DNA from: Neobacillus nitrireducens
GTDB lineage: Bacteria; Bacillota; Bacilli; Bacillales; Cytobacillaceae
Assembly (NCBI RefSeq): GCF_030915405.1
Contig: NZ_CP133262.1
Span: forward strand, 3,286,001 to 3,350,000
Reading direction: 5' to 3'
DNA: 64,000 nt
Within the stretch, counting starts at the first letter, position 1. Each line of letters opens with the position of its first letter. The position numbers were made by a program, and so were the translations under genes. The notes under the pieces were generated by a model. That model was not told the origin of the DNA. It saw only the letters and a list, made by a program, of their open reading frames with translations, and made no database searches. Below, one piece after another: positions 3,203-62,304 of the stretch.

Positions 3203-3251
3203 GAAGAAAGCTTCGTTAAACTAAATATAAAATCCTCATCTTTTAGCATTA

Positions 3252-4312: not shown

Positions 4313-4330
4313 GACTGGAAAAAAATATTT

Positions 4331-4361
4331 AGTGCAAGCACCTGATGAGGGTGCTTGCACT
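4331..4361 (+). other. Intercistronic hairpin between binding-protein and permease genes
   Basis: AGTGCAAGCACC pairs perfectly with GGTGCTTGCACT (12 bp, 7-nt loop). No T run follows, so it is unlikely to stop all transcription. Hairpins here commonly stabilise the upstream part of the mRNA and keep binding protein in excess over membrane components; that role is inference. Confidence 0.7.
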
Positions 4362-4384
4362 ATTCAATGAAGGAGGTATAGATC

Positions 4385-9559: not shown

Positions 9560-9572
9560 ATAAGGTGATCAT

Positions 9573-40703: not shown

Positions 40704-41497
40704 TCGTAGCCCTCCTTACGGTTGAAAACAATTGCTGTGAAAAATGAAACGACAAGCCAAAACAAGAGATTTCCAAGTAAAAAGAATACCGGTTTCGTCC
40801 ACATAAATGCTTGTAAGAGTCTCGACATATGGCCGAAGGAATATACCCCTGTGCCCGTTTCCAGAAACATGCGAACCGCCTGAAGCGGATTTAAAAAGTA
40901 GACCGAAGAGAATAGTTTCACATTTTCATGTGTGACATCAGGCAAGAACGATAGCAAGATAAAATCATGTAAGAAGAAAAAGTAGAACCAGACAAAAATT
41001 GTGAACCCTAAAATTTGCATGCGCGAGCGGCTAAAACTGCCGATCGCCGCCCCCATTTGCAGAAAGACGAGACTCATGCAAACGATCGCTGCTATAAAGA
41101 TGAAGTAACCTTTAATATCAAGTTGGAAATTAAATTTTAGTAGAAATAAATAGATGAAAAACCAAGTAATCAGCGGGACAAGGACGACGGCATAAAGCCC
41201 AAGGCTTTTTTTCATCAAAAAGCTGCCAAAATGGTCTGTCTTCGTCAGTAGCATGATCAAGGTCTTCTGTTCCTTTTCCTGAAAAATCGAGAAGGCCCCG
41301 ATAAATAAACATAGAATCGGAATAAAATAGATAATCGTATCAAATAGATTGATTAAGAGCACATAAAAGCCTTTATCAAATGAAAGGACTGAGGAACGAA
41401 ATAAAATCGCAATTGAAATCAGAACAATAATGCTTAAACTTAGCCAAAGTCCTTTTCCTCTTATATTTTCCTTCCATTCCTTCCAAATGTAATGCAT
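40700..41497 (-). CDS. nosY: NosY, permease of the nitrous oxide reductase maturation transporter
   Basis: A 265-residue ABC-2 type membrane protein with about six helices. 'IFQEKEQKTLIMLLTKT' (about 90-106) is the ATPase-contact loop seen in NosY. The ATG at 41497 with GGGAG upstream lies inside the nosD 3' end (37-nt overlap), and the stop overlaps nosF by 4 nt. Family and position give the name. Confidence 0.85.
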   Translation of the reverse strand: MHYIWKEWKENIRGKGLWLSLSIIVLISIAILFRSSVLSFDKGFYVLLINLFDTIIYFIPILCLFIGAFSIFQEKEQKTLIMLLTKTDHFGSFLMKKSLGLYAVVLVPLITWFFIYLFLLKFNFQLDIKGYFIFIAAIVCMSLVFLQMGAAIGSFSRSRMQILGFTIFVWFYFFFLHDFILLSFLPDVTHENVKLFSSVYFLNPLQAVRMFLETGTGVYSFGHMSRLLQAFMWTKPVFFLLGNLLFWLVVSFFTAIVFNRKEGYE

Positions 41498-42801: not shown

Positions 42802-43371
42802 TTACTTTCGATCCTTCCATAAAGGAATTAAGAGCAGGATAAATGCTGCGATTACCAAATAGGTTCCCAAGCCAAGCAGGCTGTCAGTTTGAAAGTTTGC
42901 CACTGTATTATGCCCTAATATAGGCGGAACAAATGGATCCATTTTTATCGGTGCATGAGGATCTAAATTCGTGCCGAATTTTTTCAGTGCATGCATCAGG
43001 TCGAAGACACCAAGACCTCCGCCAATTACAAATAGACCGATTAAGCCGTATAAAACTGATTTTTTCCGTAAAAGAGCTGTTAATAGAGTTAATGCAGCTA
43101 AACCACCCACTAAATAGGGTAAATACGATAATTCAGGGAAGTTCTTTTCGCTGAAATTTGCCATACCGATATAGTGATTTAATCCATTAACAATATCAAT
43201 TTCACCCGCAAGCTTGTTAGGATAAACAATGATATTTAAGCCTTCCGGATATTGCGGAGCCACAAAGACCATTTTCCACCACGGGAAAAAAAGTGAGATA
43301 ACTATTAAAATACTTGAAGCAACTAGTATCAATGAAGAAACTACTGATAATTTTTTTGCTTGACCTTTCAT
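42802..43371 (-). CDS. Four-helix membrane protein of the nos operon (NosB-like)
   Basis: About 189 residues with four hydrophobic segments (roughly 12-32, 83-100, 108-125 and 165-184). The loop between the first two carries 'FFPWWKMVF' and 'NGLNHYIGM'. A membrane protein of this size between nosZ and nosD is typical of clade II nos clusters and has been called NosB; its job is unknown. I prefer the ATG at 43371 because the AAAGG site is too close to the ATG at 43380. Confidence 0.7.
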   Translation of the reverse strand: MKGQAKKLSVVSSLILVASSILIVISLFFPWWKMVFVAPQYPEGLNIIVYPNKLAGEIDIVNGLNHYIGMANFSEKNFPELSYLPYLVGGLAALTLLTALLRKKSVLYGLIGLFVIGGGLGVFDLMHALKKFGTNLDPHAPIKMDPFVPPILGHNTVANFQTDSLLGLGTYLVIAAFILLLIPLWKDRK

Positions 43372-43458
43372 GTTAAACATCGCCTTTTTTATGGGATCAT
43401 CGATAAATAGAGAAGGGTATCAATCCTTAGAATTGATACCCATCGCCAACTTTTTACT

Positions 43459-43604
43459 GTCTAGCTTCAGCGCCTAGCGACTAGTGTACTTCGCCCTCCT
43501 CAATTCGATAAGTCAACATCGAATCGCTAACGCTCTTCGTGTTTCCTTTATCTTTTTCGAAGGGCTCCAGTCCATACGTCGCTGAACAGGCGCTTCCGCT
43601 TTTC
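43459..43604 (-). repeat. Stop-codon-proximal intergenic repeat, full-length copy 2 (after nosZ, inside the operon)
   Basis: About 146 bp, about 70 percent alike to the copy at 11571-11718. It abuts the nosZ stop codon directly and separates nosZ from nosB. In gene direction it opens with AAGCGGAAGCGCCTGTTCAG and ends with CGCTAGGCGCTGAAGCTAGA; the ends pair (AGCGCCT/AGGCGCT, AGCGAC/GTCGCT) and an inner ATTCGAT/ATCGAAT stem follows. Confidence 0.88.
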
Positions 43605-45470
43605 CTATTTCTTTGGTTTTACAAGGAAGTAACCGTTCATTTCTTGGTGTAGCGCTGAACAGAAGTTTGTACAATAAAGTGGATAGGTTCCTGCTTTATT
43701 CGCAACAAATTCCATTGTGTTGGTTTGACCAGGCTGAACTTCCATGTTTAAGTTATAGCTGTTGATGGCAAATCCATGGGTAATATCTTCATCGAAATCA
43801 ATATTCGTTAGATGAATGGAGACGTGATCCCCTTCATTAACTTCAATCACATCTGGACGTTTTGCTTTTGCATCAAAGATGAATTTCGAACGCATGGCAA
43901 TTCCGTATACATCGACCTTGTTACCGTTGCGGACGATTTTCGTATCACTTTGCTTGTATACTGCATCCTTGTTCTTTGTATCCTTCGGATAGACATTAAT
44001 AGTTTTGATCTTATCCGCTTTAATCATTTGTGCATAGTGCGGTTCAGGGTCTACTGGTGACGATTGAATGACTTTCATTTTCCCGCTGATATCAATTAAT
44101 TGCATGGATTCAGGATGGGATGGTCCAACAGATAAGTAGCTGTCTTTAGCAATCTTGTTTAAAGCAATAAGCCATTTTCCATCTGGTGCAACGGTATCGC
44201 CTTCTGCGGCAACAGAGTGTCCAGGAGAATATTGAACAGGTACACGGTCTAGTGTTTCACCTGTTTTTGGATTCCATTTCACGATTTCAGAAGAAATGAA
44301 CATCGTTGTATAGGCCATGCCTTTGTCATCAAATTGAGTGTGAAGCGGTCCTAAAGCATTTTCAGGGTTAACTTCTCTTTCCATGACTGATTTGTAATTA
44401 AGAATCGGAATCCCATTACGTTCTCCGGCAAAGTCTTTGTTTTTAACAGCTTCAAAGGCTTTTTCAAACGAGAAGACAGTCATTGTCGGTGCAAGTTTAC
44501 CTGAAGCAATAAATTGCTTACCATCTGGTGTTACGTCAACACCATGTGGTGACTTAGCAACCGGAATTAAATAAATGCCACCCTTTTGTTTTTCAGGGTA
44601 AATCATTTTTTGACCGCCAACATTTTCGTACTTGCCTTCCTTAACCATCTTTGCAAGCTCTTTCCAGTTAAACAAAACGATGTAGTCACGGTCTGCTTGT
44701 GATGCATTGATTTCCAAGTTTGTTGTAGCTTCTTCAGTATTGTAGGTTGTCATAACAGCCCAATCAGCTGAACTCTTTTTACCAGCATCAGAAAGGTCAT
44801 AGGACCATGGTGGAAGCGCCACTTGATAGGCAATACCTAGCTTTTGATTCTTTTCATTAAAGGTTACAGCCGACATAACGCCGCGGTACTGATCGCTAAA
44901 GTTGTCAAGTGATTCATATTTTTGGCCAACCGGTACAGCAAACCGAGTTGGTAAGAACATGTACTCTGTATTTTCTGTTACGAATGCTGCACAGTGCGGG
45001 CCGGCAGTGTTTGGAACTTGAATGATATCTTTTGTTGTAAATGTTTTAAGGTCGACAACAGCTGCACGGCTGTTCCCTACATCTGTAGCAAACATGTATT
45101 TACCGTCATAGTCACCCTTTGTTTCAGAGAAGGCCGGATGGTGAAGGTCTCCCCATGTATAGTCGCCCATCATTTTTTTCGAATGCTCATCGAAACCGTA
45201 TCCTGTCGCAGAATCTTGAGAGAATACAGGAATCGTTCTAATTTTCCGCATCGACGGAACCCCGTAAATAAACATTTGACCAGAGTGACCGCCTGAGGCA
45301 AATAGGTAATAATCATCTTTTTGACCGAATGGAACATATACCTTTTCTGCATCACTCTTAGTGCTGGAGGCAGCTTCGGTATTCGTCTTTGCTGAGAAAT
45401 CAGCAAAAGAGATGGTTGCTGCAACAAACCCTGCTAAGAGTCCCGATGCGATCGGAATCCATTTTTTCAT
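43605..45470 (-). CDS. nosZ: Nitrous oxide reductase NosZ (Sec-exported, clade II type)
   Basis: A 621-residue multicopper enzyme that reduces N2O to N2 outside the membrane. The signal peptide (residues 1-34) has no twin arginine, so export is by Sec, a mark of clade II enzymes. 'GDLHHPAFSETKGDYDG' holds two histidines of the CuZ site, with others in 'GPHCAAF' and 'SPHGVDV'. The C-terminal cupredoxin carries the CuA ligands in 'CTNFCSALHQEMNG' (Cys-x3-Cys-x3-His-x2-Met). It lies downstream of a cytochrome c gene and upstream of nosDYF. Confidence 0.96.
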   Translation of the reverse strand: MKKWIPIASGLLAGFVAATISFADFSAKTNTEAASSTKSDAEKVYVPFGQKDDYYLFASGGHSGQMFIYGVPSMRKIRTIPVFSQDSATGYGFDEHSKKMMGDYTWGDLHHPAFSETKGDYDGKYMFATDVGNSRAAVVDLKTFTTKDIIQVPNTAGPHCAAFVTENTEYMFLPTRFAVPVGQKYESLDNFSDQYRGVMSAVTFNEKNQKLGIAYQVALPPWSYDLSDAGKKSSADWAVMTTYNTEEATTNLEINASQADRDYIVLFNWKELAKMVKEGKYENVGGQKMIYPEKQKGGIYLIPVAKSPHGVDVTPDGKQFIASGKLAPTMTVFSFEKAFEAVKNKDFAGERNGIPILNYKSVMEREVNPENALGPLHTQFDDKGMAYTTMFISSEIVKWNPKTGETLDRVPVQYSPGHSVAAEGDTVAPDGKWLIALNKIAKDSYLSVGPSHPESMQLIDISGKMKVIQSSPVDPEPHYAQMIKADKIKTINVYPKDTKNKDAVYKQSDTKIVRNGNKVDVYGIAMRSKFIFDAKAKRPDVIEVNEGDHVSIHLTNIDFDEDITHGFAINSYNLNMEVQPGQTNTMEFVANKAGTYPLYCTNFCSALHQEMNGYFLVKPKK

Positions 45471-45488
45471 CTAATTACACCACCTGTT

Positions 45489-45944
45489 TTATTTTTCAGA
45501 AGCTTGTTTAAGTAGGTCTAACACTTGTGTGCGTTCTTCATCAGTTAATGGGTTTTTGCCGATAACGCCTGACATCACGGCAGAAGTAGGCGCTTTCAGG
45601 AATTCCTCGATCGGCTTGCCATGCTTTCCTTCAACGTTAACAAACGCTTGTGAAAGATCTGGTCCTACGGCTCCACCCTTAATATTTAAGGCTTCAACAC
45701 TGTGACAGCCAAGGCAGCCCTTCTTGTTTAGGATGTTGTCCTCACTAGCTGAAACGGTTGTAGCTTCCTTTGCATCCGTACCTTCTTCTTTGGCAGCAGC
45801 TGCTGTTTCTGTCTTTTCTGTTGTTGATGTTTGTGCTACTTGAGGCTGCTTACCAGAATCTCCCATGATTACATCAAATACTAAGTAGCCAAGTCCAAAG
45901 CCAAGTATTGCACAGACTACAAAACTAATAATGGCTTTATTCAT
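45489..45944 (-). CDS. nosC: Membrane-anchored c-type cytochrome of the nos operon (NosC)
   Basis: A 151-residue cytochrome c. An N-terminal membrane anchor (about 5-27) is followed by a Thr/Glu/Ala-rich linker and a heme domain with the binding motif 'CLGCH' (about residues 76-80). 'APTSAVMSGVI' offers the axial Met. It is first in the operon and would pass electrons from quinol oxidation to NosZ. SD AGGAGGGG precedes the ATG at 45944. Confidence 0.87.
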   Translation of the reverse strand: MNKAIISFVVCAILGFGLGYLVFDVIMGDSGKQPQVAQTSTTEKTETAAAAKEEGTDAKEATTVSASEDNILNKKGCLGCHSVEALNIKGGAVGPDLSQAFVNVEGKHGKPIEEFLKAPTSAVMSGVIGKNPLTDEERTQVLDLLKQASEK

Positions 45945-45980
45945 CTTTTCCCCTCCTTTTTATATATAATGAACACCTTC

Positions 45981-46023
45981 ATCCTAAACGCTGCAAAGGG
46001 GGAAAAATGTGATATACTTCACA
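45981..46023 (-). promoter_or_regulatory. nosC-nosZ promoter with an Fnr box at -41.5
   Basis: TGTGATATACTTCACA (46008-46023) is a perfect TGTGA-N6-TCACA dyad. On the minus strand a -10 box TAGGAT (45986-45981) places the start near 45974, so the dyad is centred at -41.5, the class II activation position. The leader before nosC would be about 30 nt. Confidence 0.8.
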
Positions 46024-46092
46024 CCTTTTTGGGAGATTTTGAACGTTATGTGAAACTGATTGCGGCAATTGGCTTTATAATATTGAACATTT

Positions 46093-46135
46093 TGTGAATT
46101 ACGTCACTACATCACTGGATTGATTACTTTACAAT
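46093..46135 (+). promoter_or_regulatory. fnr promoter with its own Fnr box at -41.5
   Basis: TGTGAATTACGTCACT (46093-46108) matches TGTGA-N6-TCACT. A -10 box TACAAT (46130-46135) predicts a start near 46142, again putting the dyad centre at -41.5. This points to positive autoregulation. Confidence 0.78.
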
Positions 46136-46186
46136 AGATGGTAAGTATTCAGCAAAAGGAAAATTCCAAATAGGGTGGTGAAAAGG

Positions 46187-46936
46187 TTGAATCAATTCGA
46201 TTGTTTAAAAGAACCGAATCTAGAAGTCTATCATGGCGCAAACGCAGTCCAAACAGATTTACTGCGGAAAATTGTTATTTTTAAGGATTTATCATCCAAG
46301 TCGTTATCTATTATTGAAAAAAGGATTCAAACACTGGACCTGAAGAAGGGCGAACGGATTATTAACGAGGCAGAGGCGGCCAAAGGTGTTTATTTCATTT
46401 ATTCAGGAGCGGTCAAGCTGACGAAGCAGGATGAAAATGGCAATGAAATCATCGTTTGTGTGAAGCAAAAAGGGGATGTGTTTGCAGAGGCCTGTTTGTT
46501 TACTAAGAGGACCGAATACTATCCAGCAACAGCGACGATGCTCCAGGACGGAAGGGTCCTTTTTTTAGATAAGTTGGAATTAGAGCGGGACTTATTCAAC
46601 TACCCGGAGTTGTCGATGCAAATGATCAGTTATATGAGTGACACCTTACGGGAAATGACTTCACAATTACGAGACGTTGCCTTGCTTGATGTTTATGCGA
46701 AGACCGTGAAAACGTTAGAACGGCTCGGAAATAAATTTAATACGGGACTTAACCGATGGGATATTGAGATTCCTTTGACCATTCAAGAATTTGCAACCGT
46801 CGTCGGAACGACAAGAGAAAGCGTAAGCCGTGTCTTTTCTAAGTTAAAAAAGGATGGCATCATCGATATGAAATCGCGGAAGATCATCATTCGCGATTGG
46901 TGCACGCTTTGTACCTTGCTGCACAAGGAATATTAA
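46187..46936 (+). CDS. fnr: Crp/Fnr-family regulator (Fnr), probable oxygen sensor for the nos operon
   Basis: A 249-residue regulator: cyclic-nucleotide-binding-like beta barrel (about 20-130), dimer helix, then an HTH_Crp domain with recognition helix 'TTRESVSRVFSKLKKDG'. The Glu, Ser and Arg of 'ESVSR' are the FNR residues that read TGTGA sites. The C-terminus ends 'WCTLCTLLHKEY', a Cys-x2-Cys where Bacillus Fnr holds part of its iron-sulphur cluster. It is divergent from nosC. The TTG at 46187 is 6 nt after GGTGGTG; GTG codons at 46175 and 46178 are alternatives. Confidence 0.85.
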   Translation: MNQFDCLKEPNLEVYHGANAVQTDLLRKIVIFKDLSSKSLSIIEKRIQTLDLKKGERIINEAEAAKGVYFIYSGAVKLTKQDENGNEIIVCVKQKGDVFAEACLFTKRTEYYPATATMLQDGRVLFLDKLELERDLFNYPELSMQMISYMSDTLREMTSQLRDVALLDVYAKTVKTLERLGNKFNTGLNRWDIEIPLTIQEFATVVGTTRESVSRVFSKLKKDGIIDMKSRKIIIRDWCTLCTLLHKEY

Positions 46937-47607: not shown

Positions 47608-47988
47608 CTAAAAGTTTTCATATAGCTTACCGTTAACTCTTTTAATTTCCTCTTTTAATTGCTTGTTTTCCTTTTCTAATTCTCGAATGCGTTCGCGAAA
47701 GACTTGAATTAAGCTATCTTTATTCTCAACATTCATATTCTTCTTTATATTCTTTGGAGATGCCACTTCTCGTTGTTGCTGACGAAGGGTTTCAATCCTT
47801 TCCCTTAGTTCAGTTTGGTTGTATAAATAAGACTTAGAAACTCCTGCTGCGATTGTAACAGTATTGAAATTTATTTTTTCATTCTGCTGGATCAATTGTT
47901 TAATCGTTTGTTCAACCTTATCAACTGTTTCTTCTTTTTTCTTTTTTGCATATGCAACGACTGCCTCAGTATTTCTTTTGTGTTTCAT
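47608..47988 (-). CDS. tnpC: TnpC-like protein of a Tn554-family transposon (DUF6262 type)
   Basis: A 126-residue basic protein. Residues 1-75 look like a helix-turn-helix ('TVTIAAGVSKSYLYNQTELRERI'-type region, key 'AGVSKSYLYN'); residues 90-120 are a short coiled coil ('FRERIRELEKENKQLKEEIK'). The third gene of Tn554-type elements has this size and build and affects orientation and frequency of transposition. Its ATG overlaps the tnpB stop by one base (TAATG). Confidence 0.85.
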   Translation of the reverse strand: MKHKRNTEAVVAYAKKKKEETVDKVEQTIKQLIQQNEKINFNTVTIAAGVSKSYLYNQTELRERIETLRQQQREVASPKNIKKNMNVENKDSLIQVFRERIRELEKENKQLKEEIKRVNGKLYENF

Positions 47989-49985
47989 TATTTCACCACA
48001 CTATCTTTTCTTTCCTGAGCTTGTAGTAATATTCTTTTGGCACTAGAACCACGGTGAGCTTTACCCTCGGTAAGTTGATCCCTAACTCTTGTTAGATTGT
48101 TCAATTGTTCTAGCGTTTTTTCGTTGTATATTGGGTAATGCCTCGTCATTTCTATATGTTCTTCAACCTTTTTGATTTCTCTGTTAAAATCGGGAAGATT
48201 TTCGGGGGTTCTACAAAAATTAGGACATGTTAAACAAGGTGTAATTACATATGGACAACCCTCTTTTTTAGAAGCCAAACAATAGCCTAAAGGAACACGT
48301 ACTGCCTCAATATTACTTTGAATATATTCCCAATGGATAAGGTCCTCATCCAAATTCATTTCTGATACTCTCGCCATACCAAGGTCAACTCGTAAGAGTG
48401 GACCCTTTTTTTCTTGTGCCTTTAACCATTCTTTTCTAAGGGTATCATCGGCAATTTTGGCATACCTCATTGTCATTTCAGGTGAAGAATGGGCAAACCA
48501 TTTCATAATGTGAGTTAAATTCATTCCAAGGTTGATTAATTCTACACCTTTTGTATGCCGGAATGCATGGTTTCCAAAGTGATAGACAGTTCCGTTTTGA
48601 TCTACAATGGAATATCTTTCAGCCCAACGATTTAATGCATCGCGAATACTTTGGTCAGTGAAAGGTTTTCCCTTCCGTTTTCCTTTTGTTCGAACAAATA
48701 AATACCCTTCGGGATTGTTCTTATGTGTTGTTTTGTCTTTTGTTTGCTCTATAATGACTTGTAAAACTTTAGCTAGTTCCTTATCAATAGGCACTCGGTG
48801 TTGTTTCACATCTGTTTTTGGAATATCTCCTTGTAAATAATAACCATTGTTTGTGGGTATCAAACAATTTTGGAACCGGAGGTTCAAAATATCACTTATT
48901 CTCCATCCGGTAGCTATAAGTAATATCACAATTGGTACATATTCTTTTTCATTATCCTTCATAGGTGGATTAACGTCTTCTGGATTCAGGTTTATAAGAA
49001 GCTCCAACTGATTCATGACGGTTTCAGGAATATATTTAATTTGATTTTCATTTTGCTTCGGTTGCTTCAAAAAATCCTCCCTAAAAAATAATGTGCCGAT
49101 ATGCTTTAACGGAGCTTCAGATCGTTCAGAACGTTGAAGATACTCTAAAAAGTATTTAACAGATGAAATCAAAAAATTCCTATAATATGGGCTATAAGAG
49201 GAGTTACTCTGATTAAAATAAATTAAATACTTTTCAATGTCTTCTCTTTTTAATTGGCTAAAATCTTTCCAATCTGGATGTTGTCCCTTAACGTAGTTTA
49301 AATAACTACTGATCCCTATAATATGACCAGCTAATTTACCCTGACTTAAATAGGTTAATGCATAAGCACAATATTCCTTTACTATTTTTCGAAATGGTGT
49401 AGGGATTTTCTCAAAAGAAAGGAGATAATGGGTTCCGTTTATTGTATACCTTGCATTCGGTATCTTTCTCAAATCCCATACATCCTTCTCAAGCTCTTCC
49501 CGTGTATCATAGAAGTGAGATAAATATTTAATAATTGAATTAAAAACTGTAATATGTGAGGAGTTATTGCCACTCTTTGTTATTATTCTGATACCTGTAT
49601 TGGTCAAAAAAGTTTTGTATTTCATTAAGCCCTGATTAAAAGGTATATCTACCAAACTCTCAATCTTAGAATAATATTTCTCCAAGAAATGACTTAAGTG
49701 TACAAGTGAAAATGAATACAACACTAATGTACTAAGGGATAAACTCTCATTCACCAATTTATTAGCGAAGAAAAATTTAATTTCATGTCTAATTGAATTA
49801 GATAAGAATGTAAAATCTATTTTTGTTTTCGAGGCGGACCAAGAACTACCACCACCGTATACCTTAAAAAAGGAGTTTGTTAAATCCCATACATCATTTT
49901 CAAAATACCCACACAATTGCTCTTGAATCACTGCCGTTTTCTCGGATGTTACGCAGGGTTGATAAGCAACAGTGTTACTCTTCAT
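47988..49985 (-). CDS. tnpB: TnpB-like tyrosine recombinase of a Tn554-family transposon
   Basis: A 665-residue phage-integrase-type recombinase. The catalytic core in the C-terminal half has Arg in 'ATGWRISDIL' (about 357), His-x2-Arg in 'NHAFRHTKG' (about 474), His in 'FAHSSPEMT' (about 496) and the nucleophile Tyr in 'MRYAKIAD' (about 505). A Cys cluster follows ('KKEGCPYVITPCLTCPNFC'), typical of TnpB in Tn554. It overlaps tnpA by 11 nt and tnpC by 1 nt. Confidence 0.92.
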   Translation of the reverse strand: MKSNTVAYQPCVTSEKTAVIQEQLCGYFENDVWDLTNSFFKVYGGGSSWSASKTKIDFTFLSNSIRHEIKFFFANKLVNESLSLSTLVLYSFSLVHLSHFLEKYYSKIESLVDIPFNQGLMKYKTFLTNTGIRIITKSGNNSSHITVFNSIIKYLSHFYDTREELEKDVWDLRKIPNARYTINGTHYLLSFEKIPTPFRKIVKEYCAYALTYLSQGKLAGHIIGISSYLNYVKGQHPDWKDFSQLKREDIEKYLIYFNQSNSSYSPYYRNFLISSVKYFLEYLQRSERSEAPLKHIGTLFFREDFLKQPKQNENQIKYIPETVMNQLELLINLNPEDVNPPMKDNEKEYVPIVILLIATGWRISDILNLRFQNCLIPTNNGYYLQGDIPKTDVKQHRVPIDKELAKVLQVIIEQTKDKTTHKNNPEGYLFVRTKGKRKGKPFTDQSIRDALNRWAERYSIVDQNGTVYHFGNHAFRHTKGVELINLGMNLTHIMKWFAHSSPEMTMRYAKIADDTLRKEWLKAQEKKGPLLRVDLGMARVSEMNLDEDLIHWEYIQSNIEAVRVPLGYCLASKKEGCPYVITPCLTCPNFCRTPENLPDFNREIKKVEEHIEMTRHYPIYNEKTLEQLNNLTRVRDQLTEGKAHRGSSAKRILLQAQERKDSVVK

Positions 49986-51102
49986 TTTTCTCCTCCCTTA
50001 ATTGTTTTTGCATCATAGCTTTCTCCCAATCATTCCGTATATCATCTTCAGAAGGGTGAATATACATTTGAATTGTTGTTTGCACATGGGCATGTCCTGC
50101 TCGCTTTTGAAGAGTTTCAGGACGCATTTCACCTGTTTTCCATAACTCCGTTATATTTGTATGACGTAACATATGGGGTGTCGCATCTATTCCAGTTTTT
50201 GCTTTAAGACGATTAAAAAGTGCTTGAATGCAATGATAATCGAGGGGGCTCCCTTTTTGTTCCCCGCGAAGTTTTATAAAAACAAAATTTGTATCAATCT
50301 CGTCTGTATGAATATCTATGATATAAGCCCGGTAAAGGTTAGCTAATTCATTTGATATATCAAGCGTGCGGGGGCTACATATTGTCTTAATCTCTGCACC
50401 ATTAATAAGTTCTCCACGATCTCGTATTGTGATCTTTTTTGCTGCTGGAACAATATCAGAAAGGTGAAGTGATAGGGCTTCACCAATCCTAATGCCTGTC
50501 TCATAAAGAAGTGCCAATAAAAATTTATCCCTGACGTTCCGACATGCATCAACTAATTTTTGTACCTGTTCTGATGTCAAAACTTTTAACTTTTCCCTTG
50601 GTTCCTTAAGTTTCAAAATCATAATATTTTTTGATTTATTTTTAAGTGTGTGGTGGAGAAAGCCCTTGAAACTACCCCTAGAGGCGAGTATCTGACTTTT
50701 CAGACGCTCAGATAAATCCAAAGCGTAGTCTTCATGCCTCATCAAATAATCATAAAATGAGTAGACCTTGTCAAGATAGATATTAATTGTACAAGCCTTT
50801 CTCGTTTTAACATCTGTTTGTTTTATATTAATTACCTTTAAATCCCGATAGGGATTCTGAAGCCACCTAACAAACTCCGCCATATTGTCAATTCCGATAT
50901 CCCTGTAATCTACCTGCTTTTGCTCCAGAAACTCAAAAAATAATTTCAATGCAAAGCAATAAGAACGGAGTGTATTTCTGGAAGATCCAGTGTTGTCCAT
51001 ATACTTGAGGAATTTTACTACTGGTTTTACAAATTCCCCATGGTTATCTTGAAGTAAATATCTCTTTCTATTACCTGAGACAATGATCTCTTGGACTTTC
51101 AT
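49975..51102 (-). CDS. tnpA: TnpA-like tyrosine recombinase of a Tn554-family transposon
   Basis: A 375-residue phage-integrase-type recombinase. The N-terminal SAM-like DNA-binding domain has 'SRNTLRSYCFALKLFFEFL' (about 41-60). Catalytic residues: Arg in 'TGIRIGEAL', His-x2-Arg in 'PHMLRHTNI', His in 'AGHAHVQTT' and Tyr in 'QMYIHPSE'. The start 'MKVQEI' mirrors that of Tn554 TnpA; the ATG 51102 is 11 nt from GAGG, and a TTG at 51108 is the alternative. It is the first gene of the three-gene transposition operon. Confidence 0.92.
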   Translation of the reverse strand: MKVQEIIVSGNRKRYLLQDNHGEFVKPVVKFLKYMDNTGSSRNTLRSYCFALKLFFEFLEQKQVDYRDIGIDNMAEFVRWLQNPYRDLKVINIKQTDVKTRKACTINIYLDKVYSFYDYLMRHEDYALDLSERLKSQILASRGSFKGFLHHTLKNKSKNIMILKLKEPREKLKVLTSEQVQKLVDACRNVRDKFLLALLYETGIRIGEALSLHLSDIVPAAKKITIRDRGELINGAEIKTICSPRTLDISNELANLYRAYIIDIHTDEIDTNFVFIKLRGEQKGSPLDYHCIQALFNRLKAKTGIDATPHMLRHTNITELWKTGEMRPETLQKRAGHAHVQTTIQMYIHPSEDDIRNDWEKAMMQKQLREEKNEE

Positions 51103-51268
51103 AACCAACCATCCTCTTTTACTTATTTAATGGGGAATTTACTCCATTAGTAAATTTCAATCATATTGGACTTATCCTAATTTCAACAAAACAGAATGTA
51201 CCTTCGTAGTATACTTTGACTACTATAATTATGAAATAGGGTTTTACTGTCAATAAAGTACAATAAAA

Positions 51269-53969: not shown

Positions 53970-54746
53970 ATGCACAGTAAAGGTTGTCCCGATGAATATC
54001 CTATTTCCTTACTTATTAACGGCTATGAAATTGCCGTTTTTCAACTGACAAAGCACAACTTAGACGATTGGACCTATGGATATTTGTTTTCTGAAGGATT
54101 TATTCAATCCTCAAATGATATTGAGTCAATTGTGATCAATGAAGAACTAAGTACAATCAACGTTTCGCTCCGCTCTGAATTTGACGAGGAGCAATTCTTT
54201 TCGAAAAAGAAGCATTACACCGCAGGCTGTGGCCGTGGCGTAACTTTCTTTTCGATGACAGATGTGAAGGCGTTTGAAAGAGTAACATCTGAAAAAAACT
54301 ATCAATTGAGTTATCTATTAAAAAAGAGAAGTGAATTCGCCCAGAATTCAGAACTTTATCTTGAAACCGGTGGTATGCATGGTGCCTGTATTGTTGATGA
54401 GGATGGCAATATTACCATCCGTGAAGATATTGGCAGACATAATGCCGTAGATAAAATAATTGGTTACGCTATCAAAAATCACCTGCAGCCCGATCGGTTA
54501 ATTTTACTAACAACTGGCAGGGTTTCATATGAAATGCTCTCTAAAGCAGCAAAATTTGGCTTTCCTGTGATAGGTTCACGTACGGCGGCTACTAAGCAGG
54601 CAGTACAGCTGGCGAAATATTTAAACATTGAAGTAATAGGCTATTTAAGAGGGAAAATGGCAACGATTTATACTTCAGCTGGCAGAGTCGAAAACGATGT
54701 AACCGGGGAGTCCAGTTTCCAGAGAATCATTGAAGGGGGGAATTAG
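53970..54746 (+). CDS. fdhD: Formate dehydrogenase accessory sulfurtransferase FdhD
   Basis: A 258-residue cytosolic protein that sulphurates the molybdenum cofactor before insertion into FdhA. 'YLFSEGFIQS', 'AGCGRGVTF' (about 88-96, with the loop Cys), 'ETGGMHGACIVD', 'REDIGRHNAVDKIIG' and 'SYEMLSKAAKFGFPVIGSRTA'-type blocks (key 'VIGSRTA') are classic FdhD. The ATG at 53970 follows GAGGAGGG. It leads the fdh cluster 85 bp upstream of fdhA. Confidence 0.93.
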   Translation: MHSKGCPDEYPISLLINGYEIAVFQLTKHNLDDWTYGYLFSEGFIQSSNDIESIVINEELSTINVSLRSEFDEEQFFSKKKHYTAGCGRGVTFFSMTDVKAFERVTSEKNYQLSYLLKKRSEFAQNSELYLETGGMHGACIVDEDGNITIREDIGRHNAVDKIIGYAIKNHLQPDRLILLTTGRVSYEMLSKAAKFGFPVIGSRTAATKQAVQLAKYLNIEVIGYLRGKMATIYTSAGRVENDVTGESSFQRIIEGGN

Positions 54747-54831
54747 CAACACCATTCAATGGCCAGTAAGAAAGATGCAATAGAGAGAAATATAGGGATA
54801 TTCTAAATTAGTTTATGGGAAGGAGAATGAG

Positions 54832-57822
54832 ATGATGGTTGAATTGAACCTGAATCGTCGGCAATTTTTAAAGCTGTCAGGTGCTACCGCTGCTACCTTG
54901 GCCGTTGTTGAGCTCGGCTTTAATGAGAAAAAGGCCTATGCGAACGCAAAGAATTTTAAAATTGCCAAAGCTACTGTAACACCAACTGTTTGCTGCTTTT
55001 GCGGTGTAGGATGTGGGATCCTTGTGCACACCAAAAACAACACTGTGGTTTATACGGAAGGGGATCCGGATAATCCGATTAACGAGGGTAAGCTATGCAG
55101 TAAAGGTACAACATTAAGACAGCTTTACACATCTGAAAAACGTATGACCAAACCGCTTTACCGTGCTCCTGGCAGCACGAAGTGGGAGGAAAAAGAGTGG
55201 GAATGGATGCTTGACACGATTGCCAAGCGGACAAAAGATACAAGAGATGCTTCATTTGTTGTAAAAGAAAACGGACTGACCGTAAACAAGACTGAAAAAA
55301 TTGCCAGCCTTGGCGGCGCGGCACTTGATAATGAAGAAACCTATTTAGTGTCAAAATTAATGAGAGGGCTTGGTGTCACCTACTTAGAGCACCAGGCACG
55401 AATATGACATAGTTCGACGGTTGCCGGTCTGGCACCTTCATTTGGTCGTGGCGCAATGACAAACCATTGGAACGACTTACAACATACGGATTGTGCACTT
55501 ATTATGGGCGCGAATCCTGCGGAAAATCATCCAATCAGCTTTAGATGGTTGACAAAAGCGAAAGAAAACGGCGGGAAAATCATCAGTGTTGACCCAAGGT
55601 ATACACGTACCTCTGCGGTATCTGATATTTATGCACCGCTGCGTTCTGGAACAGATATTGCCTTCATGGGCGGTATGATTAAATATGCAATCGATAACAA
55701 TCTTTTACACAAAGATTATGTTATTAACTATACAAATGCCTCCTTTATTGTGGCAGACGGATTTGATTTTAATGATGGCCTTTTCTCAGGCTATGACGAA
55801 GCAACGCGTACCTATGACAATACCAAATGGACAATTGCAGTAAATGAAGATGGAACTCCGAAAAAAGATCCAACCTTACAGAATCCGCGGAGTGTCTTCC
55901 AATTAATGAAGAAGCACTATTCTCGTTATGATGTGGATACAGTATCGGGAGTGACTGGTACACCTAAAAAGGATTTATTAAAGGTGTATGAGGCTTTCTG
56001 TGTAACAAGTAAAGTGGGCAAAGCAGGAACGATTCTTTACGCAATGGGTACAACCCAGCATACAGTTGGTTCACAAAACGTTCGTGCTTTCGCAATCATT
56101 CAGATGCTTTTAGGAAACATTGGCTTACCAGGCGGTGGAATCAACGCGATGCGCGGTGAATCAAACGTTCAAGGTTCGACAGACTTCGGCTTATTATGGG
56201 ATAACCTCACAGGATACCTTGGGGCTCCTAAAGCAACCGTCCCTGAGCATGCGACACTAGCAACCTATTTGGCAAAAGAAACACCTCCAACCGGTTTCTG
56301 GAGTAACAAACCAAAATTCGTGGTCAGCTTATTAAAAGCTTGGTACGGCGATAATGCTACCAAGAATAACGAGTTCGGTTATCACTACTTACCAAAGGGC
56401 AACAAAAACTACTCACATATTAACTTATTTAAAGCAATGTATAACAATGAATTAGATGGTGCTTTCCTTTGGGGAACAAACCCGGTAGTTGGCGGACCTA
56501 ATGCTGGTAAGGAGAAAGATGCACTTGGCAATCTAAAATGGCTCGTTGCTGTTGACCTTTGGGAAACAGAAACAGCAGCCTTCTGGAAAAAAGAAGCAGG
56601 CAGTGACCCATCAAAGATTAATACAGAGGTATTCCTGCTACCGGCATCGGCTTCTTTTGAAAAAGAAGGAAGTATTTCCAACAGCTCGCGTTGGATGCAA
56701 TATCGTTGGAAAGCCATTGACTCACGGGGAGAAGCACGACCAGACCTTGATATTATCCATGAACTGGCACTAAAACTGAAAAAGCTATATGCTAACAGTC
56801 CCAAACCTGCGGATCAACCTTTCTTAGCACTTGATTGGAACTATGGTAATGGCGAAGCACCAGATCTTGATGCAATTGCAAAAGAAATCAACGGATATGA
56901 CTTAAAAACTGGGAAACTCTTACCAGGCATCGCTGCCCTATTAGATGATGGAACCACTTCAAGCGGAAACTGGATTTATTCCGGCTTCTATCCTGAAGAA
57001 GGAAAAAATCTATCGAAGCGCCGTGATAACAAAGATACAGGTAATGCCAACTTCCTTAACTGGTCATTTGCTTGGCCGGCAAACCGTCGTATTCTTTACA
57101 ACCGCGCTTCTGCTGATCCAAGCGGTAAGCCATGGAGCAAGGAAAAGGCTGTTATTTGGTGGGATGCTGCGGCGAAGTCATGGGTAGGTAACGATGTTCC
57201 AGACTTTAAAGCGATTCTTTCACCAAGTGAACCAGGCGGTACGGGTGCCTTCATGATGAATAAAGATGGCGTAGGATTATTGTTTGCCCCTACGATGAAG
57301 GATGGTCCATTCCCTGAACACTATGAACCATTTGAAAGTCCAGCTAAAAATGCGTTCTCATCGGTCGAATTGAATCCTGCAGTTGTCATTAATGATGGTG
57401 ACTTTAATAAAAAAGGCTACAAGGTCGATTATCCAATTGTCGCAACTACTTACCGTGTAGAAGCACATTGGCAATCAGGTTCAATGACTCGTAACCAAGA
57501 GTGGCTTTCTGAGATTGCTAGATATATGTTTGTAGAAATAAGTGAAGAACTGGCAAAAGAAAAAGGAATTAATAATAAAGATAAAATCATTGTTGAATCG
57601 GCACGCGGCAAAATCACAGCCTATGCGATGGTAACAAAACGCTATAAACCATTTAATGTTAATGGCAAAAAGGTGCATCAAGTAGGGATGCCTTGGAATT
57701 TTGGATTTAAAGGATATGCAACAGGAGATTCTGCTAACCGCCTGACTCCACATATTGGGGATGCCAACACAATGATTCCGGAATATAAAGCATTCCTTTG
57801 CGACATAAGGAGGGCTGACTAA
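54832..57822 (+). CDS. fdhA: Respiratory formate dehydrogenase, catalytic subunit, with selenocysteine (UGA at 55405)
   Basis: One gene of 997 codons read through an in-frame TGA (codon 192). The upstream part ends '...LEHQARI', the TGA follows, then 'HSSTVAGLAPSFGRGAMTNH', which lines up with the Sec region of E. coli FdnG (Sec196). A Tat signal ('NRRQFLKLSGA') means it acts outside the membrane; 'CCFCGVGCG' and 'GKLCSKG' bind a 4Fe-4S cluster; the rest binds two molybdopterin guanine dinucleotides. It oxidises formate to CO2. A bSECIS hairpin follows the TGA. FdhB overlaps its stop by one base. SelA, SelB and tRNA-Sec must be encoded elsewhere. Confidence 0.93.
55405..55439 (+). promoter_or_regulatory. 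Bacterial SECIS element with the selenocysteine UGA
   Basis: TGA (55405-55407) is followed 11 nt later by GGTTGCC (55419-55425), the loop GGTCT (55426-55430) and GGCACC (55431-55436), a stem with one bulged U. GA (55416-55417) and TC (55438-55439) extend it. The GGUCU apical loop with a bulged U in the stem is the SelB recognition pattern of E. coli fdhF. Confidence 0.88.
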
Positions 57823-58655
57823 TGGCTGAATTTGTAAAATATGTTGACGTGACCAAATGTGATGGCTGTAAGGCTTGTATGGTTGCTTGTAAAAACTGGA
57901 ATGACCTTCCTGCCGAAGTAACCGAATTCCAAGGAAGTGTTCAGTCACATCCTAAAACAAGCGCAGATACATGGAATGTGCTTCAGTATATTGAACACGA
58001 AAATGGCAAAGGTGATTTAGAATATCTTTTCCGCCACACTTCTTGTATGCATTGTAAGGAAGCGGCATGTGAAAAGGTTTGCCCGGAAAATGCAATCAGT
58101 TATTCTAAATTTGGCTCGGTTGTCATTGATCATGATAAGTGCGTAGGCTGCGGCTATTGCGTGGAAAACTGTCCATTCGAAGTCATTTCCTTAAAGACGT
58201 ACAAAGATAAAAATGGCAAGGAATATAAAAAGTCACAAAAGTGCACGATGTGTACAGACCGTCTCGAAGAGGGCTTACAGCCTGCCTGCGTGACTACTTG
58301 TCACACGGATGCGATGCAGTTTGGTAAAAAAGATGAAATGCTGGCAAAGGCGCATAAACGTTTAGCTCAAATTAAAGACCGTTTCCCGAATGCCAATATT
58401 TATAATCCGCAAGGGGTTGGCGGTACGCACACAATTTATGTGTTAGCTGAAAAACCAAGTGTATATGGCCTTCCTGAAAGCCCTAAGATTCCAACCTCTG
58501 CAGTTGTGTGGAAAGACTATGCACAGCCAATCGGTAAAGCCATGATCGGGGCAACCACGATGGCGGTTGTCGGTGCCTTTATCACCAACAGTATTATGAG
58601 TAAGAGAAGTAAAGAAGATAATCATGACGAAGATGGAGGTGGCAGCCATGAGTAA
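57822..58655 (+). CDS. fdhB: Formate dehydrogenase iron-sulphur subunit FdhB
   Basis: A 277-residue ferredoxin-like electron carrier. Four Cys-rich motifs can hold four 4Fe-4S clusters: 'CDGCKACMVACKNW', 'CMHCKEAACEKVCP', 'CVGCGYCVENCPFE' and 'CTMC...CVTTC'. A single C-terminal membrane helix ('GATTMAVVGAFITNSIM', about 240-262) anchors it, as in FdnH. It sits between the catalytic subunit and cytochrome b. The start overlaps the fdhA stop (TAATG), and its stop lies inside fdhC. Confidence 0.93.
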   Translation: MAEFVKYVDVTKCDGCKACMVACKNWNDLPAEVTEFQGSVQSHPKTSADTWNVLQYIEHENGKGDLEYLFRHTSCMHCKEAACEKVCPENAISYSKFGSVVIDHDKCVGCGYCVENCPFEVISLKTYKDKNGKEYKKSQKCTMCTDRLEEGLQPACVTTCHTDAMQFGKKDEMLAKAHKRLAQIKDRFPNANIYNPQGVGGTHTIYVLAEKPSVYGLPESPKIPTSAVVWKDYAQPIGKAMIGATTMAVVGAFITNSIMSKRSKEDNHDEDGGGSHE

Positions 58656-59367
58656 TTACCAGAAGCATCCGAAAGCAAATGAGCAAATTAGACGTTTTCC
58701 GAAGGCTTTTGTTTGGGCACATGCAATCAATGGCTTGGCATTCTTTGCCCTCTATATCACGGCTCTGCCAATGTATACCGAATTCTTTGACTGGCTTTAT
58801 CCCGTTTTGGGCGGACCGGCAAATGCAAGGCTTTTACACAGAATTTTTGCGGTAGTGTTTATAGCACCTACCTTCATCTTACTGATTTTTAGCCCGAAGT
58901 TTTTTATGCATTGGATGAAAGAGTTAATCACATGGAAAAAGCGTGATCTTCAATTTTTCACTGAATTTGTTAAAGAATTATTTGGCTTTAACTTCAAGCA
59001 TATTCGCCAAAGTTTCTTTAACGCAGGGGAAAAAATCAACTCAGTAATCCAGATTTTATGTGCGATTCTGATTATTGCATCAGGATTCACGATGTGGTTT
59101 CCTGACTTCTTTCCAAGAGCACTTGTCCAATGGGGATACGTTCTTCATAACATCGGTTTCGGACTAGGAATTGCGGTTATCGTTGGTCACGTCTATCTAT
59201 CTGTTGTTCATAGGCATTCCAGACCAGGATATTCTGGTGTTGTTACCGGAAAAGTACCTGCCTGGTGGGCAAAAGGCCACTATCCGGACTGGTATGATGA
59301 AGAAGCCAAAAAGGGCAACTTCCCTAACTTGGATGATCCAAAGCATAAGAAGAACAAAGGCGCGTAG
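58648..59367 (+). CDS. fdhC: Formate dehydrogenase cytochrome b556 subunit FdhC
   Basis: A 239-residue, four-helix diheme cytochrome that passes electrons to the quinone pool. Candidate heme histidines are in 'VWAHAINGLAF' (helix 1), 'LLHRIFAVVF' (helix 2) and 'GYVLHNIGFGLGIAVIVGH' (helix 4), as in FdnI. The ATG at 58648 has GGAGGTGG upstream and overlaps fdhB by 8 nt; the frame opens earlier at 58624 without conservation. Confidence 0.9.
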   Translation: MSNYQKHPKANEQIRRFPKAFVWAHAINGLAFFALYITALPMYTEFFDWLYPVLGGPANARLLHRIFAVVFIAPTFILLIFSPKFFMHWMKELITWKKRDLQFFTEFVKELFGFNFKHIRQSFFNAGEKINSVIQILCAILIIASGFTMWFPDFFPRALVQWGYVLHNIGFGLGIAVIVGHVYLSVVHRHSRPGYSGVVTGKVPAWWAKGHYPDWYDEEAKKGNFPNLDDPKHKKNKGA

Positions 59368-59430: not shown

Positions 59431-59508
59431 AAGGAAAATGATAAAAAAGGGATGGCTGTCACTCTAAAGGCAGCCATTTCTTTACTACATGAAAGAGGTG
59501 CAGAACAT

Positions 59509-60318
59509 ATGATAAAGTCGGTGGTTTCAAAAGAATATCAGGAACTTCAAAAAGAAATAGTTTTACTTCAAGATAAATGGAAGCAACAGATCAATCCCGA
59601 AACGATTAGGCCAAACCTTGACAAAGCTGCGATGGAAGCTGGTGTGCCTGCTGCTGCATTATCGGCTATTGACTTTGAAATTCCCCTATATTTACAGTGG
59701 ATAGAGGAAATAATTACCTTATTAGTCATGAAAAATCCTGAGCTTGAATCAAAGCTTACAGGCATTAACAGTCTGCTAACGGAAGAAACGGCTATCCGAT
59801 GGATCGAAGAGGCTTTTTCATCCAACCATGTTTACTTTGTTAAGTTTGCAGAAGAAAACGGACTTGAAGAATGGATTCCGCAATTCTTGGCTGAAACCGT
59901 TCTCCGTCCTTATTTACAATTAACTGCAGAAAAGGTCCAAGACGAGATCACTCACGCCATCCCGGGCGCAGGCTGCCCCGTTTGTGGTGAACCAGTCCGC
60001 TTAGCTTCATTGAATGATGATGGAAAGAAGGTAATCCATTGCCCGCGCTGCCTTGCACACTGGAATGCTAAACGCCTAGAATGCGCACACTGTGGCAATG
60101 AGGACCATAAAACCACCGAGTTTATTACCATTGAAGGGGATGCTGTTTCTCAAATTCAAGTTTGCGAAGAGTGTAACGGCTATATTAAAATTATTGATAC
60201 TAGACAATATATTGAAAAACCGTCTGCAGCCTTACTGGATTTAAACTCGATTCATTTGGATTTTGTTGCTCAGGAAAATGGCTATAACGCGGTAGGTATG
60301 AAAAAAGAAACACATTAA
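59509..60318 (+). CDS. fdhE: Formate dehydrogenase accessory protein FdhE
   Basis: A 269-residue cytosolic chaperone with a helical N-terminal half and a rubredoxin-like C-terminal half holding four Cys-x2-Cys pairs: 'CPVCGEP', 'CPRCLA', 'CAHCGN' and 'CEECNG' (about 158-230). FdhE binds iron and matures respiratory formate dehydrogenases before Tat export. The ATG 59509 with AGAGGTG upstream is preferred; in-frame sequence from 59452 overlaps the repeat and is not conserved. Confidence 0.88.
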   Translation: MIKSVVSKEYQELQKEIVLLQDKWKQQINPETIRPNLDKAAMEAGVPAAALSAIDFEIPLYLQWIEEIITLLVMKNPELESKLTGINSLLTEETAIRWIEEAFSSNHVYFVKFAEENGLEEWIPQFLAETVLRPYLQLTAEKVQDEITHAIPGAGCPVCGEPVRLASLNDDGKKVIHCPRCLAHWNAKRLECAHCGNEDHKTTEFITIEGDAVSQIQVCEECNGYIKIIDTRQYIEKPSAALLDLNSIHLDFVAQENGYNAVGMKKETH

Positions 60319-60333: not shown

Positions 60334-60954
60334 ATGAAGGCTGCGGCTATTATTTTATCAGGCGGGAAATCAAGCAGGATGGGCACCAATAAAGCCCTTC
60401 TAAAAATAAATGAGAAAACCAACATCGAGAGAATTGTAGATACGCTAAAGTTGTCCTTTAATGATATAATTCTTGTAACCAATCATCCTGAACAGTATCC
60501 ATTTTTAGGAGTGAAGATGGTCCCGGATCTTTATCCCGGTCAAGGACCGCTTGCAGGGGTTCATGCCGGCTTGCTGTCATCCAAGTATGATAAAAATTTT
60601 ATTGTCGCTTGTGATATGCCGTTTGTTTCAGTCGAACTAGCCGAGGTGCTTGTCCAAAAATGCGGCGACTGTGATGCAGTCATCCCTGTCATTCATGGAG
60701 TTCAGCACCCTTTATTTGCTGTCTTTGATAAGAGAGTGACGGATGAGGTCGCAAATAGTATTAAAGCGGGACGACTTCGTATGAAACATCTGCTCGATCA
60801 TATAAACGTCCGTTATATAACGGAAAAGGACCTGCAGGAATACAGCAGTTTGGACTTAGAACGTGTCTTTTTTAATATGAATCGCCCAAACGAGTATGAA
60901 GACGCCAAAAGGTGGGCTGAAGCAGACGATTTTTCCAGCATTAACGGGCAGTAA
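60334..60954 (+). CDS. mobA: Molybdenum cofactor guanylyltransferase MobA
   Basis: A 206-residue enzyme that attaches GMP to molybdopterin, giving the bis-MGD cofactor that FdhA needs. 'IILSGGKSSRMGTNKALL' (residues 6-23) is the GTP-binding loop, 'GPLAGVHAGLLSS' and 'FIVACDMPFVS' (with the metal-binding Asp) follow. It lies 15 nt after fdhE, which fits a dedicated cofactor supply within the fdh cluster. Confidence 0.92.
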   Translation: MKAAAIILSGGKSSRMGTNKALLKINEKTNIERIVDTLKLSFNDIILVTNHPEQYPFLGVKMVPDLYPGQGPLAGVHAGLLSSKYDKNFIVACDMPFVSVELAEVLVQKCGDCDAVIPVIHGVQHPLFAVFDKRVTDEVANSIKAGRLRMKHLLDHINVRYITEKDLQEYSSLDLERVFFNMNRPNEYEDAKRWAEADDFSSINGQ

Positions 60955-61071: not shown

Positions 61072-62304
61072 ATGCAATTTTTCAAAGTGAAAACAGTTGA
61101 AGAAACATTTGCCTTAATTGAGGAAAATATTCCAGCCATCAAGCAAACCGAAGTGCGCGTGCTCGAAGAAGCGCTTCATTATATCTTAGCTGAACCAGTG
61201 ATTGCAAAGGAAAATGTGCCGAGTTTTGATCGTTCAACTGTCGATGGTTATGCTGTTCGTGCCAAGGATACGTATGGTTCTTCTGAATCGATGCCTGGCT
61301 TCCTGACGGTAACGGGGGAAGTGAAAATGGGGGAAGTTCCCACGGCAAAAGCAGGCCCAGGTCATGCGGTCTATGTGCCAACTGGCGGGATGCTTCCATT
61401 TGGTAGTGACAGCGTTATCATGATTGAACATTGTGAAGAAGTCGATACGCTATTAAATACGTACAAGCAGATTGCTCCAGGAGAAAACGTCATCCGTGCT
61501 GGGGAAGATATTAAAGAAGGCGAAACGCTGCTTACTGCTGGCACAAAACTTCGACCACAGGAGTTAGGGGCACTCGCTTCTTTAGGAGTGGCAACTGTAA
61601 CGGTATTCCGTAAATTAAAAGTCGGTTATCTTTCATCCGGTGATGAAATCGTCCCATATCAAACGGAAACCTTAGCAGAAGGGCAAATTCGTGACATCAA
61701 CTTTTTAACCATTTCAGGATTAGCGAGCGAATGGAATGTGGATGTACTCTATGGCGGAATTGTCCGTGATGATTTTGAAGAGTTTAAACAAAAGGCCCGT
61801 GAACTCTATCAACAGGTAGATTGTTTAATCCTTTCCGGCGGAAGCTCGGTCGGCGCAAAGGATTATACCACGGATGTCATCCAGTCGTTAGGTGACCCTG
61901 GCGTTTTTGTCCATGGTATTTCGATTAAGCCCGGAAAACCTACGATTCTAGCAATGGCGGATGGGAAACCAGTGATTGGACTGCCAGGTCATCCAGCCAG
62001 TGCAATGATTATCTTTAAGCTGTTTGGCGAGCAAATTTTACGCAAGCTAAAAGGCGAGCGGATCGAACGGAAACTGGAGCGGGTGTTTGCAAGAATTACG
62101 AAAAATATTCCTTCCTCACCCGGACGTTCTGATTATATCCGTGTCCGCTTGTTCGAAAAGGCGGGAGAATGGTGGGCGGAACCGATTATTGGCAAATCCG
62201 GCTTGATCACAACCTTAGTCAAGAGCGATGGAATTGTCGAAATTAGTTCAGAAAAAGAGGGAATTGCACAGGGAGATTACGTACCTGTGATTTCATCACG
62301 ATAA
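61072..62304 (+). CDS. moeA: Molybdopterin molybdotransferase MoeA
   Basis: A 410-residue enzyme that inserts molybdate into adenylated molybdopterin. 'SFDRSTVDGYAV' (about residues 51-62), 'PTGGMLPFGSDSVIMIEH' , 'LSGGSSVGAKDYT' (about 260-272) and 'GISIKPGKPTI' with 'IGLPGHPASA' are the MoeA landmarks. SD AAGGGGGAAG precedes the ATG. It is followed 14 nt later by a second, fused MoeA-type gene. Confidence 0.94.
   Translation: MQFFKVKTVEETFALIEENIPAIKQTEVRVLEEALHYILAEPVIAKENVPSFDRSTVDGYAVRAKDTYGSSESMPGFLTVTGEVKMGEVPTAKAGPGHAVYVPTGGMLPFGSDSVIMIEHCEEVDTLLNTYKQIAPGENVIRAGEDIKEGETLLTAGTKLRPQELGALASLGVATVTVFRKLKVGYLSSGDEIVPYQTETLAEGQIRDINFLTISGLASEWNVDVLYGGIVRDDFEEFKQKARELYQQVDCLILSGGSSVGAKDYTTDVIQSLGDPGVFVHGISIKPGKPTILAMADGKPVIGLPGHPASAMIIFKLFGEQILRKLKGERIERKLERVFARITKNIPSSPGRSDYIRVRLFEKAGEWWAEPIIGKSGLITTLVKSDGIVEISSEKEGIAQGDYVPVISSR

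Follow-up and report, generated by a model that had tools for sequence, protein, structure and literature searches.

The frame at 54832–57822 of the window (the whole stretch of 64,000 nucleotides from Neobacillus nitrireducens analysed here) is a single fdhA gene interrupted by one in-frame TGA, and it almost certainly encodes an ordinary respiratory formate dehydrogenase of the FdnG/FDH-N type with selenocysteine (Sec) at that codon, in a soil relative of Bacillus. The TGA is followed by a SECIS hairpin under codon-level constraint, and the genes of the Sec machinery are present in the genome. Judged by these sequence features, the fdhA system is real and very probably functional. Systems of this kind are well known, and the analysis adds one more example together with two minor leads.

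Mechanical ORF calling had listed two adjacent ORFs in the same frame, 54832–55407 (191 aa) and 55456–57822 (788 aa). Read through, they form one frame of 996 residues with a single TGA at residue 192 (55405–55407) and a terminal TAA, and AAGGAG stands ahead of the start at 54820–54825. The product matched TIGR01553 (formate dehydrogenase-N alpha) with 1276.7 bits (cut-off 814.2) over profile positions 2–1008 of 1009. It contains the Fe4S4 and molybdopterin domains and the Tat signal expected of a TIGR01553-type protein, all of them above cut-off (PF10518, TAT_signal, 25.7 bits vs 22.7; PF04879; PF00384; PF01568). Best-segment identity was 100% with Bacillus sp. AFS006103 and 97% with Neobacillus drentensis NBRC 102427. 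FdhA aligned over almost its whole length with 1h0h, 6sdr and 1kqf, and its residue 192 was paired with the X (a non-standard residue) that precedes HSATVA in 1h0h chain A; here the TGA is followed by HSSTVAGLAPSFGRGAMTNH. The original prediction, that the two ORFs are one fdhA interrupted solely by a TGA at 55405, at the Sec position of FdnG-type enzymes and ahead of this very block, was thus confirmed.

Of the solved enzymes, 1h0h, which we take to be the tungsten formate dehydrogenase of Desulfovibrio gigas, aligned with residues 43–995 (1058 bits) and has the same Sec position and post-Sec block, but the fdh operon here includes a cytochrome b subunit gene and the metal here would be Mo or W. 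The entry 1kqf (formate dehydrogenase, nitrate-inducible, major subunit; presumably E. coli FdnG) aligned with residues 6–995 and likewise has a Tat signal and Fe-S and cytochrome b partners. However, it scored 955 bits vs 1058 for 1h0h, and the partner subunits here fall under the NCBIfam cut-offs.

The genes around fdhA are listed in Table 1. FdhB and FdhC find their best NCBIfam matches in TIGR01582 and TIGR01583, and since the scores of these two proteins and of FdhE lie under the NCBIfam cut-offs, the three names are used at family level only. Among the 70 relatives with full flanks, the order FdhD-FdhA-FdhB-FdhC-FdhE-MobA-MoeA is kept in 67; fdhB, fdhC and the fdhE-like gene are in place in all 70, fdhD and the mobA-like gene in 69 each, and the moeA-like gene in 68.

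Table 1 Features of the fdh locus and of the Sec genes elsewhere in the genome (positions are those of the window unless a locus handle is given)
Feature	Position	Strand	Evidence
fdhD, formate dehydrogenase accessory sulfurtransferase	53970..54746	+	PF02634 E 7e-67; TIGR00129 177.5 bits vs cut-off 140.9; NF001943 under cut-off
fdhA (fdnG-type), molybdopterin formate dehydrogenase alpha subunit, Tat signal, codon 192 predicted Sec	54832..57822	+	TIGR01553, PF10518
In-frame UGA, predicted Sec codon	55405..55407	+	Alignment to 1h0h chain A; TGA in relatives
SECIS element, Rfam SECIS_3	55402..55460	+	60.0 bits, under gathering score 63
Apical SECIS hairpin GGU-U-GCC(GGUCU)GGC-ACC, predicted SelB contact	55419..55436	+	Sequence and pairing test
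fdhB, Fe-S subunit	57822..58655	+	PF13247 E 3e-20; best NCBIfam TIGR01582 233.9 bits, under cut-off 334.7
fdhC, cytochrome b membrane subunit	58624..59367	+	PF01292 E 2.7e-16; TIGR01583 85.5 bits, under cut-off 115.85
fdhE-like, formate dehydrogenase accessory protein	59452..60318	+	PF24860 31.7 bits vs 27; TIGR01562 51.3 bits, under cut-off 187.65
mobA-like, molybdenum cofactor nucleotidyltransferase	60334..60954	+	PF12804 (MobA-like NTP transferase) 132.2 bits vs 27
moeA-like, molybdopterin molybdotransferase	61072..62304	+	PF03453, PF00994, PF03454 all above cut-off
SelW-like Rdx gene, 79 residues, CxxU (CMQU), TGA at codon 14	L002:10342-10581 (G000:C1 ~644.3-644.6 kb)	-	PF10262, TIGR02174
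selD, in-frame TGA at codon 19, motif KAGUGCK	L002:10723-11778 (G000:C1 ~644.7-645.8 kb)	+	TIGR00476
tRNA-Sec, strong copy	L013:10921-11017	-	63.3 bits
tRNA-Sec, weak copy	L013:9959-10050	-	45.4 bits, under gathering 47; acceptor stem changed

Several other features of the window were noted in passing. A nitrous oxide reductase cluster (39127–46936; nos_propeller protein, NosD, ABC transporter genes and a small CxxCH protein) with a CRP-type regulator lies 7–8 kb ahead of the fdh operon and fits anaerobic respiration. On the minus strand between these two clusters (47988–51108) lie overlapping genes for two tyrosine recombinases of 665 and 377 aa, presumably arranged like TnpA/TnpB of Tn554-type elements. 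On the plus strand, a Lysine riboswitch (RF00168, 134 bits) at 3251–3434 precedes what by inspection is an apparent amino-acid ABC transporter operon (3515–5787), and the stretch 8384–10184 holds a chromosomal Alp7A/ParM-like actin homologue (PF22128) with a 203-aa gene behind it, an arrangement that we take to be that of plasmid segregation loci.

The Sec codon was then compared among relatives of the gene, taken as the best 80 of 479 loci from a scan of named genomes (62–100% identity; Neobacillus, Mesobacillus, Cytobacillus, Evansella, Anaerobacillus and others). One locus (L101), whose contig starts past the Sec codon, was left out of this count. The codon was TGA in 78 of the 79 readable relatives and TGC in one (L076), a copy with a decayed hairpin that differs at hairpin nucleotides and in the codon ahead of the TGC; L090, which is listed under the same MAG but has TGA, retains the hairpin. 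Within the genus, fdhA was found in 49 of 61 genomes, with TGA in all 49 (one copy is split across two contigs). Across the phylum, 101 of 398 sampled genomes had a match at E < 1e-100, and 89 loci out of 125 match rows were used apart from the window's own gene, mostly the higher-scoring ones, with one (L185) from the same family. A motif recognised 84 of the 89 as 78 Sec and 6 Cys copies. Five loci (L257, L267, L268, L269 and L273) were not recognised, and all of these except L257 came from rows marked as lacking a stop, so that Cys copies are undercounted in the phylum-wide set.

The sequence behind the TGA matched the full length (1–59) of SECIS_3 (RF01989) with an E-value of 9.1e-14, its score missing the gathering score by 3 bits. 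The first hairpin pair (55419) follows the TGA after a spacer of 11 nt and the GGUCU loop occupies 55426–55430, exactly the spacing and loop that had been predicted. The layout (11-nt spacer, GGU, bulged U, GCC, GGUCU loop, GGC, ACC) is, we presume, that of the E. coli element; unlike the SECIS_3 consensus, which has GUC ahead of the UGA, the gene has AUA there. The fold of the 60 nt after the UGA was no more stable than that of shuffled sequences (z 0.35), and RNA stability alone was therefore dropped as evidence for a SECIS element: what counts is this particular hairpin and the fact that it is conserved. When the peptide was recoded 20,000 times with randomly chosen synonymous codons, all six pairs plus the GU arose in 250 recodings, a GU-tipped hairpin of equal or greater stability in 188, and one of any stability in 3172. 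The fdhA hairpin is more than chance.

Synonymous variation was analysed in 79 Sec-type genes, i.e. the window gene and 78 loci, with the Cys copy L076 left out. Of 416 stretches of seven codons, the one from residue 196 varied least, with an entropy of 0.07 at synonymous level vs a mean of 0.76 over 439 well-conserved codons of the same set; as the sequences are related, these values do not amount to a probability, and the rest of the same genes served as the control. A GU-tipped hairpin was present in 78/78 Sec copies and 0/1 Cys copy among the best 80 of 479 loci, and phylum-wide in 76/78 Sec and 2/6 Cys copies, the latter from an incomplete set. The exact six-pair register of the window hairpin recurred in 24 of the 78 phylum-wide Sec copies, which means that the register varies and is not a phylum-wide rule. 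Taken by the general definition of a bacterial SECIS element, the gene has a hairpin 11 nt past the UGA, with GU in its loop, conserved beyond coding need. A second SECIS_3 match at 5047058 of the genome (19 bits, E 0.36) was weak and was taken as chance.

The genome is a single contig of 5,153,056 bases, and the gene set that defines the Sec-decoding trait, selA, selB, selC and selD, is complete in it. selA lies at ~642 kb (TIGR00474, 555 bits vs 267.9), selB at ~1.10 Mb (TIGR00475, 364 bits vs 242, with SelB-wing_2 and wing_3), and selD scored 412 bits vs 125 with TIGR00476. Two tRNA-Sec genes stand ~900 bases apart at ~1.338 Mb, the stronger with anticodon TCA and 63.3 bits vs a gathering score of 47. 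The original prediction had implied a full Sec system and had named the genome-wide absence of selB or selC as the outcome that would count against it; the search found selA, selB, selD and tRNA-Sec alike. The weak second tRNA-Sec may be a pseudogene; a second copy scores above the cut-off in seven other genomes of the genus (G101, G125, G139, G141, G153, G155 and G160). In addition, a gene for MnmH (selenouridine synthase) was found at ~5.02 Mb.

Two further genes with an in-frame TGA were identified next to selA. The gene between selA and selD, below the 90-aa threshold of the ORF list, encodes an Rdx domain with a CxxU motif that places it in the SelW-like (Rdx) family (PF10262, 81.2 bits vs 22.6; TIGR02174, 67.9 vs 34.2; NF041051, 77.4, under its 88). 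The ORF list begins selD downstream of its TGA, at a TTG, and SelD itself is a predicted selenoprotein. The three in-frame TGA genes known here (fdhA, selD and the selW-like gene) all belong to selenoprotein families. In 17 distinct SelW-like and 23 distinct SelD sequences (own genome's included), collected with motifs that required U and would miss Cys forms, several codons soon after the TGA show little or no synonymous variation, as expected if the two genes have SECIS elements of their own. When 30 selA loci were examined with 1.5-kb flanks and motifs that also allowed C, a SelW-like gene was found in 9 and SelD in 17, with U alone; at the remaining loci they were not found inside the 1.5-kb flank. 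Table 2 of Zhang et al. 2006 (PMC1794560) gives three selenoprotein families and three selenoproteins for Firmicutes/Bacillales, the same number as known here (FdhA, SelD and SelW-like), and our guess is that these are the same three families. According to a 2016 survey (PMC5029168), no selenoproteins are more widespread in bacteria than formate dehydrogenase alpha and SelD.

Of 79 Sec-type fdhA genes (the window gene and 78 from the best 80 of 479 loci), 78 have AUA ahead of the UGA (55402–55404 in the window), the exception being CTC in L073; elsewhere in the same genes AUA accounts for 281 of 3893 Ile codons, and the Cys copy L076 has AUC before its TGC. Outside the order, i.e. in the 77 phylum-wide Sec copies that remain without L185, the codon is C-ending in 53 and AUA in 11 (CTC 29, ATC 21, ATA 11, ATT 5, CTT 4, TTG 3, GTC 3, CTA 1), and AUA before UGA was thus rejected as a general rule. 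Since the codon before the TGA is GGT or GGC in SelD and varied in the SelW-like gene, and mostly C-ending in fdhA outside the order, the pattern is specific to fdhA in this lineage. Codon-level selection for AUA before the fdhA Sec codon of Bacillus relatives is a doubtful, tentative reading of these counts; if true, a P-site tRNA decoding AUA would help UGA to be read as Sec. In 30/30 genus genomes examined (L003, L156–L184), seven positions of the tRNA-Sec acceptor arm are paired, while at the eighth two purines oppose each other (A-G 16, A-A 8, G-A 3, G-G 3), and such selection may go with this purine-purine tRNA-Sec. The tRNA is similar to the types with a 12-bp AT-stem that section 10 of PMC5330540 describes, where the lineages named omit Bacillales.

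Sec had been thought uncommon in Bacillus relatives, and this view was rejected by the SelA counts. PF03841 (SelA) matched in 182 of 193 genomes of the family, in 172 of them at E < 1e-90 and in ten weakly, with no match in eleven; all 13 genomes of one genus (g20) are without strong SelA. In the order, sampled as genomes at least 90% complete, SelA was found at E < 1e-60 in 136 of 299 genomes and 56 of 113 genera. The Sec trait is common among the relatives, not a rarity. B. subtilis, one of 14 control genomes, gave no SelA match, which may explain the impression of rarity. Where strong SelA is missing, in 21 genomes of the family, only two carry fdhA, both with TGA, and these genomes are 80 and 81% complete. 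From this distribution the trait would be old, and it looks as if it has been kept by descent in the family and lost as a set. Selenocysteine or a seleno-formate dehydrogenase was not found in the main text of two papers on Bacillales respiration (PMC11944866 and PMC3475470), and no study of Neobacillus selenoproteins was among the matches listed by a search with subscription literature mostly outside its scope.

Within the genus, a tRNA-Sec above the cut-off was found in 60 of 61 genomes (exception G109) by a scan with stricter filters, in which weak matches are lost. Eleven of the twelve genus genomes without fdhA keep SelA, and the twelfth, G109, is without both strong SelA and an above-cut-off tRNA-Sec. 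This fdhA is therefore not the sole client of the machinery. Of ten such fdhA-less, SelA-positive genomes (L145–L154; G157, one of the eleven, was left out of this count), nine have a Sec-type SelD next to selA and eight a SelW-like gene with CxxU, and these two proteins may keep the Sec machinery there. Zhang et al. 2006 (PMC1794560) proposed that in genomes lacking FdhA the Sec trait may be sustained by SelD, and the eleven genomes fit this proposal.

Other readings of the TGA were weighed against Sec. If it were a true stop, in a pseudogene or through a sequencing error in a Cys-type gene, the split of fdhA by mechanical ORF calling would follow at once, but among the best 80 of 479 loci (62–100% identity) 78 of the 79 that are readable share the TGA, as do all 49 fdhA-bearing genomes among the 61 of the genus, and the remainder of the frame is open with the codons past the TGA frozen, which makes such a stop extremely improbable. 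We give just as little credence to a TGA read as Trp or Cys, through a general code change or near-cognate read-through: nothing in the genes examined was found to favour it, the neighbouring genes are whole when translated under table 11, a tRNA-Sec with anticodon TCA, SelA and SelB are present, and the position is that of Sec in a solved enzyme.

A separate question is whether the Sec-containing enzyme came with a cassette (fdhA with selABC) acquired recently by horizontal transfer, as described for Pseudomonadales (PMC1794560). The tyrosine recombinase pair nearby (47988–51108) would suit such an event, yet selA-selW-selD, selB, tRNA-Sec and fdhA occupy four separate chromosomal places, strong SelA is found in 172/193 family genomes, and the fdh cluster order is the same in 67/70 relatives. 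Recent acquisition is thus very unlikely, though a little less so than the alternative readings of the TGA; an older transfer may have taken place.

For the Sec-containing formate dehydrogenase encoded here, we infer the following route from the gene content. SelD would make selenophosphate, with which SelA would convert seryl-tRNA-Sec to selenocysteyl-tRNA-Sec; SelB would carry the latter to the ribosome, its C-terminal winged helices binding the hairpin 11 nt past the UGA, and the UGA at 55405 would be decoded as Sec192. These SelD, SelA and SelB steps follow the known bacterial Sec pathway. FdhD and the FdhE-like, MobA-like and MoeA-like proteins would provide the Mo or W cofactor and assist assembly, the Tat signal would export FdhA together with FdhB, and FdhC would hand the electrons of formate to the quinone pool as their probable acceptor.

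To summarize, the gene split is corrected, with one fdhA in place of two ORFs, and members of this family of Bacillus relatives as a rule possess the Sec machinery, among them genomes of the genus from which fdhA has been lost. If this is confirmed at the bench, spore-formers such as these, whose selenoproteins are few, might serve as simple models of Gram-positive Sec decoding.
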